From positions 1,054,001-1,118,000 of the forward strand of contig NZ_CP019343.1 in the NCBI RefSeq assembly GCF_002117105.1: 64,000 nt of DNA. Reading direction: 5' to 3'. The stretch's first letter is position 1; each line of letters begins with the position of its first letter. Below the pieces are notes generated by a model. It was given only the letters and a program-made list of their open reading frames with translations. It did not search any database and was not told the DNA's origin. Position numbers and translations under genes: made by a program. Positions 9,882 through 17,068 of this stretch are shown here, piece by piece. This stretch comes from Oceanicoccus sagamiensis. Its GTDB lineage: Bacteria > Pseudomonadota > Gammaproteobacteria > Pseudomonadales > Dasaniaceae.

Positions 9882-11297
9882 TTACTCGGTAAATTGAGAA
9901 TCAGAGCCCGACGACTGCCTGGGTTTTTTGCGGGGGCGGCGGCGCTTGCTTCTTTTGTCCTGCAACTTCTCTGTCATCGCAGCGCGCTGGTCCGGACTGC
10001 GGTTTTGGTAGTCTGTCCACCACTGCCCCAAATTATCGGTTTCCTCACCCGCCTGCTCCCGCAATAGCAAGAAGTCATAAGCAGCACGAAAGCGACGATT
10101 TTCCATCAATTGCTCTGCCTTGCGACCGCCACGTCGTGGCAGGCGTAGCTGCATATCCCAGATCTCTCGCATCGGCATACCAAAGCGCTTGGGAATGGAG
10201 GTCGATTGCTGCTGCCGCGACACCACTTCCTGTGCAGCTTGATGCATAGCGGGTACGGCGGGCACCCCCTCTTTGAGTAATTGCTGCTGCCGCTCACTGA
10301 CCGCGGGCCATAACAGAGCAGCATAGATAAACGCGGGGGTTACCGGCTTACCCTGCTGGATACGGGCATCGGTATTCTTTAAGGCTTGTAACACCAGGCG
10401 CTGATAGTGCTCTTGCTCCAGGCTATGCTGTATTTGCGGGAATAGCGGCTCAAATAAACCAAACTCCTGCATTAAGTTATAGACATCGACACCGCGGCCG
10501 GACATAAATAATTTCAGCACCTCATCAAACATACGTGCCGCCGGTATATCGGCCAGCGAGGGGGCCAAATCATAGATTGGCGCTGCGGTTTTCGGCTCAA
10601 TGGTAAACCCCAGCTTGGCAGCAAAACGCACCACCCGCAGCATTCTTACCGGGTCTTCCCGGTAACGGGTTTCAGGATCACCAATAACCCGAATCACCTT
10701 ATTTTCAAGGTCTTTTAAGCCATGAGTGTAATCATAAATGGCAAAGTCAGCGGTGGTGTAATACAAGGCATTGATAGTCAGATCACGGCGAATAGCATCT
10801 TCTTCTACGGTGCCAAAAACATTATCCCTTAATAGCATGCCATTTTGAGAGCGGGCAGATTGCTGGTTCTTAGGCCTTTTACCCCTGGTGCTCTCTTCAG
10901 TCTGTTCATGGGTACCACGGAAGGTGGTCACCTCAATCACTTCACGACCAAAGCGCACATGAACAATTTTAAAACGGCGGCCAATAATACGGGAGTTGCG
11001 AAATAGCTTATTCACCTGCTCAGGGGTCGCATCGGTGGCAATATCAAAATCTTTGGGGCGCCCACCCAATAGCAAATCCCGAACACCACCACCCACCAGA
11101 AAACCCTCATAACCGGCTTTGCGCAGGGTGCTCATCACTCTCAGAGCGGCATCGCTAATATGTTTGCGGGAAATACTGTGCTGGTCGCGGGGAATGATAT
11201 GCGGATCTATAGAATTAGGGTCAATATCACTGGAGCCTGTACTCTTACCGAGCACGCCTTTGACTCGCTCAATTGCGTTGGAGAACAACTTTGCCAT
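9882..11297 (-). CDS. pcnB: Poly(A) polymerase I
   Basis: The enzyme adds 3' poly(A) tails to RNA and so promotes decay. It has 471 aa. The nucleotidyltransferase motif FLVGGGVRDLLLGGRPKDFDIATDA carries the catalytic Asp pair (about residues 61-85). RRDLTINAL and the DPVRMLRVVRFAAKLGF block (RNA-binding region) are present. The C-terminus is basic (KRSKRRRPRKKPRQ), typical of PcnB rather than CCA-adding enzymes. Two sigma-54-promoted small RNA genes on the same strand end upstream of it, so read-through into pcnB is possible. Confidence 0.95.
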   Translation of the reverse strand: MAKLFSNAIERVKGVLGKSTGSSDIDPNSIDPHIIPRDQHSISRKHISDAALRVMSTLRKAGYEGFLVGGGVRDLLLGGRPKDFDIATDATPEQVNKLFRNSRIIGRRFKIVHVRFGREVIEVTTFRGTHEQTEESTRGKRPKNQQSARSQNGMLLRDNVFGTVEEDAIRRDLTINALYYTTADFAIYDYTHGLKDLENKVIRVIGDPETRYREDPVRMLRVVRFAAKLGFTIEPKTAAPIYDLAPSLADIPAARMFDEVLKLFMSGRGVDVYNLMQEFGLFEPLFPQIQHSLEQEHYQRLVLQALKNTDARIQQGKPVTPAFIYAALLWPAVSERQQQLLKEGVPAVPAMHQAAQEVVSRQQQSTSIPKRFGMPMREIWDMQLRLPRRGGRKAEQLMENRRFRAAYDFLLLREQAGEETDNLGQWWTDYQNRSPDQRAAMTEKLQDKRSKRRRPRKKPRQSSGSDSQFTE

Positions 11298-11510
11298 ATA
11301 ACGTTAAACTCAGCTCTTAAACCCGCCCCTAACTAATGCGGCTAATGGATAAAGTGGCGGATAGTACCACATATAAGCGGCAAGCCTAATCAGCGGCCAA
11401 CGCTTAAACCCACGAACATGGCAAAACAAGTCCGTAACGACGTGATTTTATGGCTTAGAGCAAAGTGGGAAGTAAAATGGGAAGAAAAGTACTAAGTGTG
11501 GCCTTGTAAT

Positions 11511-11590
11511 GATGAAGGGAAAACTTATGTTTTCCCCCATCCAGGTCTCATATTTTTTATTATTATTTTTACATTTTTTATTATTATTAA
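11511..11590 (-). ncRNA. CrcZ/CrcY-like Hfq-sequestering small RNA, copy A (proximal to pcnB)
   Basis: Starting about 12 bases after a sigma-54 -12 element, the transcript opens with two (AAU)n/A-rich runs (AAUAAUAAUAAAAAA and AAAAAUAAUAAUAAAAAA), the AANAANAA type bound by Hfq/Crc. It continues with GAGACCTGGATGGGG and a hairpin (GGGAAAAC-ATAA-GTTTTCCC, extended by GATG/CATC with one bulged U). The same order is kept in copy B, with a different but still paired hairpin. In Pseudomonas, CrcZ lies exactly between cbrB and pcnB and relieves Crc/Hfq repression. The 3' end is uncertain because no U tract follows the hairpin, so the true RNA may be longer. Confidence 0.75.
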
Positions 11591-11600
11591 TCTATTACAT

Positions 11601-11617
11601 AGCAGATATCGTGCCAA
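11601..11617 (-). promoter_or_regulatory. Sigma-54 promoter of small RNA copy A
   Basis: On the minus strand TTGGCACGATATCTGCT has the invariant GG and GC at sigma-54 -24/-12 spacing. Predicted transcription start is about 11590. A conserved CAATGACTTATA string lies just upstream of both copies. Confidence 0.85.
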
Positions 11618-11710
11618 AAAATAATATCTCTACAGAACAATGACTTATAGATATATCTTTTAAGCTGAAATGTGAAAAATGACACAAACGTTACAGATCA
11701 TCACGGTAAC

Positions 11711-11737
11711 TGTTACAACTCCACCCCATGAGTAACA
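11711..11737. promoter_or_regulatory. Probable CbrB enhancer site, copy A
   Basis: The inverted repeat TGTTAC-N15-GTAACA is centred about 108 bases upstream of the -24 element. From memory the Pseudomonas CbrB site is TGTTAC-N14-GTAACA at a similar distance; the spacer here is one base longer. Copy B has the same motif at the same distance. Confidence 0.7.
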
Positions 11738-11913
11738 ATTAATTGACTGATTTTCTGCCTTTAAAACCTGCAGCTATCAAATCTTTTTTTATGTGAATAT
11801 TTCGCAATATAGATAAAGCACGAAAATTGATAACACGCATTACATATAAGCGAGGTTTAATCAGGATATAGGGGTAAAACGCTGGGGATAATTCTTAAAG
11901 GGGGAGGTAAATT

Positions 11914-12000
11914 GATGAGGGAAGATAACTCTTCCCCATCCAGGTCTCTTTGTTTTTATTATTATGATAAATATTATTTTTATATATTATTTTTATTATG
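11914..12000 (-). ncRNA. CrcZ/CrcY-like small RNA, copy B (proximal to cbrB)
   Basis: The architecture matches copy A. From a predicted start at 12000 come A-rich runs (AUAAUAAAAAUAAUAU, AAAAAUAAUAUU, AUAAUAAUAAAAACAA), then GAGACCTGGATGGGG, then the hairpin GGGAAGA-GTTA-TCTTCCC extended by GATG/CATC with a bulged U. Compared with copy A, the stem bases differ but stay paired, which supports a real RNA structure. By position it is the CrcZ counterpart; tandem duplication with copy A gives two RNAs, as P. putida has CrcZ and CrcY at separate loci. The 3' end is not defined. Confidence 0.78.
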
Positions 12001-12010
12001 GTTAGTACAT

Positions 12011-12027
12011 AGCATTCGCCGTGCCAA
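12011..12027 (-). promoter_or_regulatory. Sigma-54 promoter of small RNA copy B
   Basis: On the minus strand TTGGCACGGCGAATGCT matches the -24/-12 consensus (TGGCACG ... TGCT). Predicted start is about 12000. Confidence 0.85.
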
Positions 12028-12120
12028 CTTTTTATATCCTTTAAAATCAATGACTTATACTTTCTAAATTGATCAATAAGGCTTTCTAGTCAAGCAAACG
12101 TTACCAATCAACTCGGGGTT

Positions 12121-12147
12121 TGTTACGAATACTCATTACAAGTAACG
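12121..12147. promoter_or_regulatory. Probable CbrB enhancer site, copy B
   Basis: TGTTAC-N15-GTAACG is centred about 109 bases upstream of the -24 element, the same geometry as copy A. Confidence 0.7.
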
Positions 12148-12322: not shown

Positions 12323-13738
12323 TTAAGAGGCGGACTTGGCACCCTTTTTACGAGGGATGCCCAAACGCTGCCGGCGCTCCCACAGGCATTTACGGCTCAC
12401 ACCGAGCTTGCGCGCCAGCTCGGTTTCGCTCATGGAGTCTTGATGCTCCAGTACAAAGCGCTGGAAATAGTCTTCCAGTGACAGATCATCCTGAGCCTCC
12501 TCGCCCATTAACTCGGCGGGGGCATCCGTAACCGGCGCTACAATAGGCCGCTTGCTGCGAATCTGGGTAACATTGACCAGCTCCAGGTCGATATTGAGCA
12601 GATCGTTATCGATACTCTCGCCGTCATTTAAAATAACCGCCCGCTCAATCACATTTTCCAGTTCACGGACATTACCGGGCCAGGTATAAGTGGTAATCGC
12701 CTGAATAGCCTTGGGGGAAAAGGTGGCTACCGGTTTATTAAGCTCGATACAGCGGCGCTCTAAAATACTCTCGGCCAATTCCAGAATATCCTTACCCCGG
12801 TCACGCAACGGCGGCAGCACTAACTGCATGACATTAATGCGGTAGTACAAGTCAGGGCGGAACTGGTTTTCATGGGCCAGAGTTTTCAGGTCTCTGTGGG
12901 TTGCACAGATTAAGCGCACATCGACCTTGCGGGATTCAACGGCACCAATGCGGCGAATTTCATCTTCCTGGATAAAGCGTAACAATCGAGCCTGTGCTTC
13001 CAGCGGTAATTCGCCAATTTCATCGAGAAACAAGGTGCCACCATCTGCCGCTTCAATTAAGCCCATACGGTTATTATTAGCGCCGGTAAAGGCACCCTTC
13101 TCATAACCAAATAACTCAGATTCGATCAAGGTCTCAGGGATAGCGGCACAGTTAACACTGATAAAAGGCTGTTCGGTGCGATGACTGTAGGCGTGGATAG
13201 CCTTGGCGACCAACTCTTTACCGGTACCGGTTTCACCATGAACCAGCACCGTAGCCTCGGTCGGCGCCACTTTGTTGATATGTTCGTAGAGCTTAATCAT
13301 CGGCTGGCAGTTACCAATCATGCCGCCCAAATGAGAATGGCCGCGCTTGGCCGTCGAAGTGCGTTGTTCTTCAGGGGTACTTTGTGGCGAGTGGTTGGCG
13401 ATAATAGCCGCCACTGCATCTAACATTTCATCGTGATCGAAGGGCTTGGCAATATAATCCACGGCGCCACTTTTCATCGAGTCCACCGCCGAACGCAGGC
13501 TGGCGTAGCTGGTCATTACCAATACCGGCACATCACCCGCCGGTTTAATCAAATCGGTGCCGGGGGCTCCCGGTAAACGCAAATCACTGATAATCAGGTC
13601 AAAACTGCTAAGGTCAAAATTATCCAGAGCCTCATTCACCGCCCCGGCTTCACTCACCTGATACTCATGGCGTTCTAAGAGTTTACGCAACGCGCTACGG
13701 ATGACCGTTTCGTCTTCAACAATTAGAATCTTTTCCAT
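12323..13738 (-). CDS. cbrB: Sigma-54-dependent response regulator CbrB
   Basis: This NtrC-family activator controls carbon and nitrogen source use. The receiver domain (ILIVEDE, phospho-acceptor in LIISDLRLPGAPGTDLI, Lys in IAKPFDHDEML) covers residues 1-120. The AAA+ domain has Walker A GETGTGKE, GAFTGA for sigma-54 contact, and Walker B GGTLFLDEIGE. A Fis-type HTH (ETELARKLGVSRKCLWERRQRLGIPRKK) ends the protein. The ATG at 13738 is preferred over an upstream TTG. The target promoters are probably the two small RNAs directly downstream. Confidence 0.95.
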   Translation of the reverse strand: MEKILIVEDETVIRSALRKLLERHEYQVSEAGAVNEALDNFDLSSFDLIISDLRLPGAPGTDLIKPAGDVPVLVMTSYASLRSAVDSMKSGAVDYIAKPFDHDEMLDAVAAIIANHSPQSTPEEQRTSTAKRGHSHLGGMIGNCQPMIKLYEHINKVAPTEATVLVHGETGTGKELVAKAIHAYSHRTEQPFISVNCAAIPETLIESELFGYEKGAFTGANNNRMGLIEAADGGTLFLDEIGELPLEAQARLLRFIQEDEIRRIGAVESRKVDVRLICATHRDLKTLAHENQFRPDLYYRINVMQLVLPPLRDRGKDILELAESILERRCIELNKPVATFSPKAIQAITTYTWPGNVRELENVIERAVILNDGESIDNDLLNIDLELVNVTQIRSKRPIVAPVTDAPAELMGEEAQDDLSLEDYFQRFVLEHQDSMSETELARKLGVSRKCLWERRQRLGIPRKKGAKSAS

Positions 13739-13905
13739 CGACAATACCTTCGAATATTTCTTTTGATTTCAGTAACTTAAACTTAAATCGTGAAATTGGG
13801 CGCAATGACCGCCGGTGCCACGGTGTGTAGCTTGGTAACATACCCCGTCTACCCGCATTTTTCCAGTGACAGAGTAACAAAAAATGCCTGAGTGAGGCTG
13901 TTAGG

Positions 13906-16866
13906 CTAGCCCTGCTGGTGGTGATAAAGGCGCAGGGTAAAGCGTGTACCACCGCGAACCGGGTCAGCCGGGCTTTCTACACTGATATTGCCATTCAGGT
14001 CATCGACAATACTGTATACCAGTGACAAGCCCAGGCCCGTGCCCTCGCCTGCTTCTTTGGTAGTAAAGAAGGGGTCAAATATCTGTTCCTGATGCTCTTT
14101 GCTAATACCGCTACCGCAGTCCGTCACATTGATATAGACCTGCTGATTGCGCAGCTCAGTATCAACCACCACCGCACTTTGCTCAGGGCTGGCATCCCGG
14201 GCATTACTTAACAAGTTAACAAAGACCTGCAATAAACGCTGGGTATCACCAATAGCATAGAGTTCGTCTTCACACTGGTTTTCAAATCGCATTTGCTTGG
14301 CCTCTTTATTGAGGTGCAGTAAATGGATCGCTTCTTCAACGCAGGATTTAATATGCACTGGGCCTAATTCATGACTGGCGGACTCTGTGCCTGAATGAGC
14401 GAAGTTGACCAGAGTTTGCACAATCTTAGACACCCTTTCTGTCTGCACTAAAATTTCCCGGCCGGTCTCAAGGCTTTCCGGGTTATCGGTGTCATAGCGC
14501 AGGTTCTGCGCCAGACAAGCGATACCGGTTACCGGATTGCCAATCTCGTGGGCAACACCGGCAGCCAAACGGCCAATCGATGCCAGCCGCTCACTGTGCA
14601 TCAACTCATCCTCCAGCATTTGCACATCGGTAGTATCTTCTAACACGATAACGCGGCCATCGGCTTGCTCGCCCTCTGCATCAACCAGAGTTTTATGCAG
14701 GTTAAACCAATAGCTGCTACCACTGTCTTCGTAATGCTGCTTATATAAATGCGCCTGGGGCATATGCACAAAGTCAGCGAGCAACTCACCCCAGGGTTTT
14801 GGCAGACTGCGCAAGCTGGAACCGATCACATCAAAGGTGCTAATGCCGGTGAAATTCGCAATCGCGTTATTCCACATTAAAATTTCACCATCCTGACCGA
14901 GGGAACACACCCCTACCGGTAAATCCTGCAAGGTCTGTCGGTGATAGCGCCGCAGATTATCCAAATCAGCCGCCAGGCCGGTAAGGTGCACTTTGTAGTT
15001 TTCTAACTGTCCTTCAATTAAATTAATATCTTCGCCGCTGCCAGCACTGCTGCCGCTTTCATAGGGCAATAGTTGATTGACCATATCGTGGGCCACCGAG
15101 GGGCCTAACAGACCTGATAAGTTAGCCTCGACGCGATAACGTAAACGCCGCAACGCAAAAGGCCGGCTCTCACTATCAGACATCTGCATATCATACAGAG
15201 CACGATCCACTTCACGCTGCGCGGTACGTTGACCCAGAGCTGTCGCCAACTGGTCTTTCATTTGCTCCGGGCTTTGCACACTTAATAGACGTCGCGTTGG
15301 GCGATTGAGATCATCCGTCGCGCAAACTTCTGCAGCATTTTTTTCCTCTTCTGAGGTGGAGGTAATCACGGACACCACCCCAAACACCAACATATTCATT
15401 CCCAGCGAAACAATGGTGACCGCAGACCACAGGTCATCATAGACCAAACTAAAATACAGTTTGCCAATAAAAGTGGGATCAAAGCTGGTAATAATCGGTA
15501 GCAATAAGGTGACAAACCAAATCGCAAAGCCGGTAATTAAACCCGCGATAAAGCCTTTGCGGTTAGCTCCTTGCCAATATAAAGCCGCCAATACCCCCGG
15601 GAAAAATTGCAAGGTACCAATAAAGGCAGCCAGGCCAAGACTCGACAGCGCTTCACGGCCGGCAATAAACCGATAAAAGGCATAACCGGTCAAAATAATA
15701 CAGACAATCAATATACGGCGAATCCACAATAACCAACGGTAAATATCGCGGTCAGTGCTGGGGCGGTAAACCGGCAGAATTAAATGCTTTAGACACATGG
15801 AGGCCAGCGCCAGGGTCGTGACGATAACGGCGCCACTAGCCGCCGATAAACCACCGAGATAAACCAGTATTGCCAGAGCGGATGACTCTAACTCAATGCC
15901 AATGGCCAGTGTAAAGTATTCTGGCGGTATCACGGTTTCTAATTTAAAACCGGCCCATAAAATCGGCAGTACTGGCAGGCTCATTAACATTAAAAATAAT
16001 GGCACCCCCCAACTGGCGGTGAGCATCGCTTTGACATTGGGGTTCTCTGCAAAAATCATATGAAACAAATGGGGCATAGCCACCGCGGCAGAAAAGAAAA
16101 TCAACAACAATGCACGGGAGGAATCCTCACGCATAGGAAAATTTAACAGGGATACGATTTGCGGGTTGGCAGTCAGCCACTGGTCCATACCATCAAAGCC
16201 ACCAAACACTTGATAAACGGCGGCAAGCCCAACCACCAACATAGCAATCAGCTTAATCACGGACTCAAAGGCGATAGCGGCGACCAGACCATTGTGACGC
16301 TCATGGGCGGTTAAATGCTTGGAACCAAATGAAATGGTAAACAGACAGATCGCCAAACAAAAAATAAACGCCAACTCATTATGCCGAGTCTCCTTGGTAA
16401 ACAGAGCATCATCACCGGCGCTTATGGTGGTCAAAATATGCAGGCTATCCGCTACGGCTTGAATTTGTAAGGCCAATAAAGGCCACACCGCAAACACCAT
16501 AAAGAGTGTCATTAATGAACCGGCCCATTGAGTACGGTAGCGGAAGGTCAGTACATCAGCCAGGGAGCTGTGCAGGTAAGTTCTGGCGATGCGCAACAGC
16601 GGTAATAATAAGAGCGGCGCAAAAATAAACGTACCGGCTACTCCTAAATAGTAGGAAAGAAAACCGTAGCCATATTCATGGGCCAGGCCGACGACACCAT
16701 AGATGGACCAGGCACTGGCAAACACGCCCAGTGATAACACATAGGTTAGGGGGTGACGAATTAACTGCTCAGGTATCCAGCCACGGTCCGCAATATGGGC
16801 TATCCCAAATAGCAGCAGTAAGTATCCAATACCAATAATAAATAACTGGGATAACTCAAAGCTCAT
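13906..16866 (-). CDS. cbrA: Transporter-fused sensor histidine kinase CbrA
   Basis: CbrA joins an SLC5 (sodium/solute symporter)-like membrane domain of a dozen or so helices (roughly residues 1-500) to a linker, a PAS domain (LPVGVCSLGQDGEILMWNNA), a HisKA domain (GVAHEIGNPVTGIACL with the phospho-acceptor His), and an HATPase (N box FVNLLSNARDAS, DCGSGI, GEGTGLGLSLVYS). I start it at the internal ATG giving MSFELSQLF (986 aa), because it fits the family N-terminus and overlaps cbrX by 11 bases, suggesting translational coupling. It phosphorylates CbrB. Confidence 0.94.
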   Translation of the reverse strand: MSFELSQLFIIGIGYLLLLFGIAHIADRGWIPEQLIRHPLTYVLSLGVFASAWSIYGVVGLAHEYGYGFLSYYLGVAGTFIFAPLLLLPLLRIARTYLHSSLADVLTFRYRTQWAGSLMTLFMVFAVWPLLALQIQAVADSLHILTTISAGDDALFTKETRHNELAFIFCLAICLFTISFGSKHLTAHERHNGLVAAIAFESVIKLIAMLVVGLAAVYQVFGGFDGMDQWLTANPQIVSLLNFPMREDSSRALLLIFFSAAVAMPHLFHMIFAENPNVKAMLTASWGVPLFLMLMSLPVLPILWAGFKLETVIPPEYFTLAIGIELESSALAILVYLGGLSAASGAVIVTTLALASMCLKHLILPVYRPSTDRDIYRWLLWIRRILIVCIILTGYAFYRFIAGREALSSLGLAAFIGTLQFFPGVLAALYWQGANRKGFIAGLITGFAIWFVTLLLPIITSFDPTFIGKLYFSLVYDDLWSAVTIVSLGMNMLVFGVVSVITSTSEEEKNAAEVCATDDLNRPTRRLLSVQSPEQMKDQLATALGQRTAQREVDRALYDMQMSDSESRPFALRRLRYRVEANLSGLLGPSVAHDMVNQLLPYESGSSAGSGEDINLIEGQLENYKVHLTGLAADLDNLRRYHRQTLQDLPVGVCSLGQDGEILMWNNAIANFTGISTFDVIGSSLRSLPKPWGELLADFVHMPQAHLYKQHYEDSGSSYWFNLHKTLVDAEGEQADGRVIVLEDTTDVQMLEDELMHSERLASIGRLAAGVAHEIGNPVTGIACLAQNLRYDTDNPESLETGREILVQTERVSKIVQTLVNFAHSGTESASHELGPVHIKSCVEEAIHLLHLNKEAKQMRFENQCEDELYAIGDTQRLLQVFVNLLSNARDASPEQSAVVVDTELRNQQVYINVTDCGSGISKEHQEQIFDPFFTTKEAGEGTGLGLSLVYSIVDDLNGNISVESPADPVRGGTRFTLRLYHHQQG

Positions 16867-17068
16867 TCGAGGATTTTTCCTTTTCGCTAATGGCGTTTTG
16901 GCGGCGCTCGTAACGGCGGATACTCCACCAGACAAAAATGATCGTGATTAACCACAGTTGGTAGGGGCGATACCAGGCCGTACCCCCTTGCGTCACCCAT
17001 TCCTGAATTGACGGAGAGAACACAAAAATAACCAGCAATAAAAGTAATAGGCTTGGGCTAATATGCAT
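16856..17068 (-). CDS. cbrX: Small membrane protein upstream of cbrA (CbrX-like)
   Basis: This 70-aa protein has two hydrophobic segments (about residues 5-19 and 37-50) and a charged C-terminus (RRYERRQNAISEKEKSS). Its stop overlaps the cbrA start by 11 bases. A small gene in this place is known in Pseudomonas as cbrX/PA4724.1 and is thought to be translationally coupled to cbrA. Assignment rests on position, size and topology; the molecular role is not known to me. Confidence 0.8.
   Translation of the reverse strand: MHISPSLLLLLLVIFVFSPSIQEWVTQGGTAWYRPYQLWLITIIFVWWSIRRYERRQNAISEKEKSSNEL

Follow-up and report, generated by a model that had tools for sequence, protein, structure and literature searches.

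In Pseudomonas, CrcZ is an RNA decoy that lifts the block on the use of less-favoured foods. According to the accessible excerpts of the respective papers, CrcZ of P. aeruginosa contains six A-rich stretches and titrates Hfq (PMC4063720), and crcZ of P. putida is activated by CbrB via the sites F1, R1 and R2 together with IHF and sigma-54 (PMC6296734). A 2022 review (PMC8871633) and a 2018 research paper (PMC6296734) call the CbrAB-CrcZ branch unique or exclusive to Pseudomonadaceae. In the open-licence PMC literature, we found no paper on CrcZ-type RNAs outside Pseudomonadaceae; CbrA/CbrB homologues receive a passing mention in work on a vent gammaproteobacterium (PMC4136832) and on a mesopelagic metatranscriptome (PMC5073097). 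Here we describe two units behind cbrB of Oceanicoccus sagamiensis which, judged from their sequence and by analogy to Pseudomonas, are very probably genes for short, CbrB-activated, sigma-54-dependent, CrcZ-like decoy RNAs for Hfq/Crc.

The window analysed, i.e. the whole stretch of 64,000 nucleotides, originates from a genome of 4.47 Mb on a single contig. On the minus strand, cbrA, cbrB, a gap of 1025 bases and pcnB follow one another (Table 1). Compared to the Pseudomonas locus L010, the cbrB product is 64% identical to CbrB, and residues 15-1006 of cbrA show 53.9% identity; the transporter part of cbrA gave no Pfam match at 1e-5. The gap, directly downstream of cbrB and before pcnB as for a CrcZ-type RNA gene, contains two minus-strand units, copies A and B, both with the 5' to 3' order F1, R1, R2, sigma-54 promoter, A-rich AANAANAA array, GAGACCTGGATGGGG and hairpin. 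A preliminary description of this DNA had proposed tandem CrcZ/CrcY-like small RNAs between cbrB and pcnB, in two blocks about 410 bases apart, a proposal which is supported by the position, the CbrB sites, the promoters, the CA motifs, the hairpin and the presence of Crc and Hfq; the promoter blocks lie 410 and the hairpin blocks 399 bases apart. The sigma-54 promoters, A-rich runs and shared motifs that it listed were all recovered, on the minus strand, and its predicted starts at 12000 and 11590 agree with ours, which were placed 12 bases after the GC of the -12 element. Its inverted TGTTAC/GTAAC site is present in both blocks, but has to be replaced by a set of three sites (F1, R1 and R2) instead of a single inverted one.

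Table 1 Positions of the genes, promoter elements and predicted RNAs within the window (position 1 is the first nucleotide of the window).
Feature	Position	Strand	Basis or content
cbrA, sensor kinase	13906-16935	-	HisKA, HATPase_c and PAS in Pfam
cbrB, sigma-54-dependent response regulator	12323-13744	-	Response_reg and Sigma54_activat
Copy A CbrB site F1 (CGTTAC)	12142-12147	-	Sequence; layout score
Copy A CbrB site R1 (GTAACA)	12121-12126	-	Sequence; layout score
Copy A CbrB site R2 (GTAACG)	12099-12104	-	Sequence; layout score
Copy A IHF-like site AATCAATGACTTA	12045-12057	+	9/9 specified positions
Copy A sigma-54 promoter TGGCACGGCGAATGCT; predicted start near 12000	12011-12026	-	
Copy A predicted RNA, about 90 nt	11909-12000	-	ARN/CA array 11998-11950, GAGACCTG, hairpin 11940-11914
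Copy B CbrB site F1 (TGTTAC)	11732-11737	-	Sequence; layout score
Copy B CbrB site R1 (GTAACA)	11711-11716	-	Sequence; layout score
Copy B CbrB site R2 (GTAACG)	11689-11694	-	Sequence; layout score
Copy B weaker IHF-like site GAACAATGACTTA, offset as in copy A	11635-11647	+	7/9 positions, by inspection
Copy B sigma-54 promoter TGGCACGATATCTGCT; predicted start near 11590	11601-11616	-	
Copy B predicted RNA, about 83 nt	11506-11590	-	ARN/CA array 11588-11551, GAGACCTG, hairpin 11541-11511
pcnB, poly(A) polymerase, downstream neighbour	9882-11297	-	TIGR01942, 547 bits (cut-off 305.65)

The promoters of the two copies share their geometry. In both, F1 and R1 are spaced by 20 bases, R1 and R2 by 22 bases (start to start), and R2 and the promoter by 78 bases, compared to 19, 22 and 82 at the Pseudomonas locus L010; thus, the CbrB sites fall in the range of 20-25 bp expected of a CrcZ-type gene and are followed by a sigma-54 promoter of the form GG-N10-GC. 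The order F1-R1-R2, the spacing and the R2 variant GTAACg are likewise described for P. putida crcZ in the available part of PMC6296734. A joint score for the F1-R1-R2-sigma54 layout reached 25/25 for copies A and B alike, compared to a maximum of 20 in 1000 dinucleotide shuffles of the gap, which control for composition only, since the spacing windows of the score were set after viewing the window and Pseudomonas. The exact F1-R1-R2 pattern has two occurrences in the 4.47 Mb genome, both in the cbrB-pcnB gap, but is in itself not beyond chance genome-wide, because the same pattern read backward as a control occurs three times. What exceeds chance is the position of these sites and the promoter behind them. 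The consensus sequence for IHF is WATCAANNNNTTR. In copy A, CAATGACTTATA agrees with it at all 9 specified positions; in copy B, the aligned site agrees at 7 of 9 and ties with another stretch as the top scorer. Among 83 promoters, including those of the window, the best IHF match was located at the offset and strand of copy A in 39 cases, and 20 of the 22 perfect matches shared this offset and strand.

The RNAs predicted from these promoters are about 80-95 nt long and begin with several CA and A-R-N motifs. CA motifs were counted 13 times in the gap (overlapping count), compared to a mean of 1.6 and a maximum of 8 in 1000 shuffles, and runs of at least three A-R-N triplets number three in copy A, two in copy B and six at the Pseudomonas locus L010. 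In an alignment of seven members of the family of the source genome (labelled f1, and including Dasania sp. GY-MA-18, G002/locus L002), the mean identity was 0.60 within the unit and 0.21 in the 100 bases after the hairpin for copy A, and 0.55 and 0.23, respectively, for copy B, and the conserved columns coincided with the promoter, A-rich, GAGACCTGGATGGGG and hairpin elements. The two copies have a common fold, which runs from GAUG through one arm of the upper stem, the loop and the other arm to CAUC. The upper-stem arms are GGGAAGA and UCUUCCC in copy A and GGGGAAAAC and GUUUUCCC in copy B, and this difference between A and B is found, with small changes, in the aligned f1 members. An alignment-free arm-swap test on hairpins of 49 distinct relatives, retrieved with the covariance model R1 described below, gave a mean of -18.3 kcal/mol for the native and -15.2 kcal/mol (sd 0.30) for the swapped arms, with none of 300 swaps as good as native, although the split of the arms at the loop of the native fold somewhat favours native pairs. 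This is in line with the claim of the preliminary description that the stem differs between the copies and yet remains paired. In a column-based analysis of the model alignment A3, 76.6% of the cells were paired, the covariation score was above all 500 shuffles, and 7 pairs were changed on both sides compared to 4.4 in the shuffles (6/500 as high), while further pair types were not above the shuffled level (307/500) and a slide by -3 paired more cells (81.7%); the stem register is offset by one base between the copies. We conclude from these sequences that the pairing of the hairpin is maintained through compensating changes. A short open reading frame starting at the ATG of the hairpin was rejected by eye, since neither the frame nor the length of what follows this ATG is constant, whereas the pairing persists. 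The T-runs after both hairpins are poor (TCATCAATTT, TTCATCATTA), and termination at the hairpins is therefore not certain.

GAGACCTGGATG and the stem are (nearly) invariant in both paralogues of the seven f1 members and recognisable in several other families. Conservation is strong for GAGACCUGGAUG in front of the stem, although neither a decoy nor a terminator would need it. RNAs of dual function, in which the single-stranded GAGACCUG and the hairpin of a decoy would serve in addition as a seed for pairing to mRNAs or as a site for a second protein, would account for a conservation of the GAGACCTGGATG-stem part that exceeds the needs of a terminator and for its lack in CrcZ of the Pseudomonas locus L010. 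We nevertheless consider dual function rather unlikely. At the level of an 11-base seed, the 11-mer complementary to GAGACCTGGAT has no match in the own genome apart from the two RNA genes themselves, and six additional matches read in relatives fall within open frames (152-493 codons) and do not represent such RNA genes.

In order to place the two units in a wider context, we looked at the loci behind cbrB across the order. Of 244 genomes sampled from the order, 176 have a cbrB gene (E at most 1e-140), and 77 post-cbrB loci were read: 60 chosen to span families, two of which were represented by very short stretches (483 and 113 bases), 8 of f1 and 9 named loci, which may duplicate others. A promoter score of at least 22, a threshold exceeding every shuffle run (maximum 21; five per locus), was reached by 60 of the 77 loci, each of them with at least two CA motifs within 400 bases; this corresponds to 53 of the 68 f1 and family-spanning loci, distributed over 27 of 35 families of the order, and 7 of the 9 named loci. 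Nine further loci scored 19-21, including Alcanivorax (L028), where no CA motifs lie behind the scored promoter; the CbrB-like sites and CA motifs that are present at this locus were rejected as a unit, having no clear GG-N10-GC promoter in front. Scores below 19 were obtained for eight loci, namely the two very short ones, G015, G016, G228, G018, G109 and the named locus L013, and some cbrB-bearing genomes (e.g. in f7, f8 and f10, and G109) have no such unit in the stretch read. pcnB followed within the stretch in 46 of 60 loci. Class-wide, a cbrB relative was found in 18 of 274 genomes, 15 of them outside the order, and none of these 15 had a convincing CrcZ-type unit within 1.5 kb: the score was 22 in G398 (L247), where a single CA motif is present, and 20-21 in four others, which have none.

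The hairpin is distributed more narrowly than the promoter. A search with a covariance model, R1, made from 22 hairpins, gave at least two matches in 9 of the 10 sampled f1 genomes, i.e. in all nine with cbrB; the tenth (G009, 64% complete) has no cbrB at the cut-off, and its single 11-mer match is not a unit. Within the order, R1 matched 41 of the 244 genomes at E 0.01, the weakest of these matches being in part due to chance, and at E 0.001 it matched, class-wide, one of 274 genomes, the own one. Of three weak R1 matches read away from cbrB, two, the apparent third copies in G005 and G028, were discarded, since they fall within open frames (229 and 180 codons, respectively) and have neither a CA array nor a full hairpin; a similar weak match occurs in G004. 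The third, in G001 (L276 about 511-551; G001:C1:587911-587951), is an intergenic GAGACCTGGATGGGG standing alone (28 bits), whose hairpin is partial and for which the 400 bases read contain no CbrB promoter. Overall, our sample suggests that the promoter layout is common in the order, with the GACCTGG hairpin as a narrower class within. The CbrAB-CrcZ branch, described as confined to Pseudomonadaceae, thus appears common across the order, judged by this sample, and is missed by the present Rfam model.

The units occur in several forms. Long bodies without the GACCTGG hairpin are found at the loci of Pseudomonas, Gilvimarinus, Marinagarivorans and Marinobacter, whereas Spongiibacter thalassae and both loci read from f24 have a single short unit. 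One promoter followed by a second, promoterless unit is found at L004 and L005 (Halioglobus MAG) and in several f41 genomes, which suggests one RNA with two units, since the second unit has no CbrB promoter of its own; at L004, L005 and L195, L196, L197 and L198 (f41), this second A-rich unit, with GACCTGG and hairpin, is often longer, and in Pseudohaliea the second unit is diverged. Two units with two promoters are present at 8 of 8 f1 loci and in G038 and G054. Tandem CbrB-type promoters, some of them weak, were also seen at L162 (f14), L192 and L193 (f39), L151 (f6) and L160 (f12): two promoters with scores of at least 22 in G064 (f14) and G083 (f39), and a second promoter at 20-21 in G047 (f39), G014 (f6) and G020 (f12). 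Since two promoters thus occur in other families with other hairpins, tandem copies seem to have arisen more than once, and those in f14, f39, f6 and f12 are, by their sequence, apparently separate duplications. A broader proposal, which we put forward with considerable reserve, would make the short RNAs a distinct CrcZ-type class in several families, consisting of a minimal Hfq/Crc decoy plus a GACCUGG-hairpin module with a role of its own, and duplicated stepwise from one unit via two units behind one promoter to two units with own promoters. The same promoterless second units, together with the weak T-runs, could be taken to mean that the gap is transcribed as a single longer read-through RNA, possibly carrying both units, or as a leader of pcnB, instead of two discrete short RNAs. 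This is improbable for f1, where each unit has a full promoter of its own in all eight loci and where conservation ends with the hairpin in both copies.

Both Hfq and Crc, the expected partners of such a decoy, are encoded in the same genome. Crc, located at genome positions 1866706-1867479 between rph and pyrE, has P. aeruginosa Crc as its best PDB match (229 bits) and is a pseudonuclease in which the catalytic residues of ExoIII are replaced (Glu by Asn, Asp by Asn and a second Asp by Ser); a separate, intact ExoIII is encoded in the same genome. There are two hfq genes, one of which lies in a miaA-hfq-hflX setting (miaA and hflX named by eye). The second hfq-like gene (L094:1474-1725; own genome about C1:2273470) has Phe at the position of the distal-face residue Tyr25 (SIFMKNGIKLQG versus SIYLVNGIKLQG). 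In a hand-chosen set of 20 genomes of the order, 17 of which carry cbrB, a Crc-like protein adjoining rph and pyrE was found in 17, with the catalytic Glu replaced in all 17, one catalytic Asp retained in G028 and both in G023. Crc was present in 15 of the 17 cbrB-bearing genomes of this set; at E 1e-25 it was not detected in G075 (f29) and G053 (f45), the latter giving ExoIII-like matches only. Both genomes have cbrB and CA-rich units (promoter scores 24 and 21, respectively), and Hfq may therefore act without Crc there. CA motifs near gene starts were counted over 400 kb, corresponding to 9% of the genome, with genes called by a simple script, and were present at 27 of 338 genes at -30 to +15, 14 of 323 at -120 to -75 and 4 of 340 at +90 to +135, a mild enrichment that is not decisive, the region being A-rich anyway.

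Since the same inputs and partners as in Pseudomonas are present, the locus is best read as encoding two short Hfq/Crc decoys. This reading draws on what can be seen in the DNA: the promoter, A-rich and hairpin architecture, the degree to which it is conserved, and the fact that cbrA, cbrB, crc and hfq are all there. Points against it are the scores far below the Rfam cut-off, the poor T-runs, the only mild enrichment of CA motifs near gene starts, the two cbrB-bearing genomes in which no Crc was detected, and the cbrB-bearing genomes of the order that show no unit in the stretch read. Transcription, dependence on CbrB and IHF, binding of Hfq/Crc and relief of repression are inferred from Pseudomonas. 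Upon exhaustion of the preferred carbon source, CbrA/CbrB would turn on both promoters with the assistance of IHF, the 5' half of each RNA, consisting mostly of A-R-N triplets, would bind Hfq, together with Crc, at its distal face, and the RNA-bound Hfq would thereby be drawn off catabolic mRNAs, while the 3' hairpin would end and stabilise the RNA. One may speculate that two genes compensate for the fewer A-rich sites per RNA. The smaller number of A-rich runs compared to Pseudomonas CrcZ might also point to CbrB-driven RNAs other than Hfq/Crc decoys or to decaying crcZ remnants, but this is highly improbable given that promoters, A-rich array and hairpin are kept in both copies family-wide with the pairing maintained, and that Crc and Hfq are retained. 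As Hfq/Crc decoys, the two RNAs seem to come close to a minimal CrcZ of natural origin and bear on the question of how many A-rich sites a decoy needs, and they are also useful for asking whether Crc is required and how decoy RNAs duplicate and change their length.

Compared to CrcZ as defined by Rfam (RF01675; Pseudomonas, Azotobacter), the units of the window are alike in their location after cbrB, in the order and, nearly, the spacing of the three CbrB sites, in the sigma-54 promoter, in the A-rich motifs from the predicted 5' end onward, and in a terminal G-rich/C-rich hairpin, which resembles the Pseudomonas CrcZ terminator in place and build. They differ in length, the model having 398 positions and CrcZ about 400 nt (407 in PAO1, according to the accessible excerpt of PMC4063720), in the two or three A-R-N runs compared to six, in the extra GAGACCTGG element and in their tandem arrangement. 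They also stay below the Rfam cut-off, the two copies reaching 17.8 and 12.9 bits compared to the required 95, and the window has no match to RF01675 at the gathering threshold. When applied to 12 other loci, the same model found CrcZ in Pseudomonas and Stutzerimonas and in 0/10 elsewhere. At the loci of these two genera, the Rfam sRNA P36 matches just after cbrB (L010:5467-5527 and L017:5411-5473); the stretch holds the CbrB sites of crcZ, and P36 may therefore not be an RNA in its own right, but the 3' end of cbrB together with the enhancer of crcZ. CrcY and CrcX of Pseudomonas are comparable to copy B as a second CbrB-driven copy of similar design (PMC8871633, PMC6292655, as far as the available text goes). 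In P. putida, crcY is sited elsewhere (PP3539-mvaB-crcY; PMC6292655, excerpt), whereas copy B lies 410 bases from copy A and next to pcnB, and the name CrcY for copy B implies no orthology to Pseudomonas crcY. The post-cbrB units of Gilvimarinus, Marinagarivorans and Marinobacter, CrcZ-type units that are previously undescribed and among which L007, L009 and L025 were also missed by the Rfam model, share the promoter layout and the CA motifs with the window, but have longer A-rich bodies and no GACCTGG hairpin. By their design, the two RNAs of the window should work like CrcZ, while falling outside RF01675 as this family is now defined.
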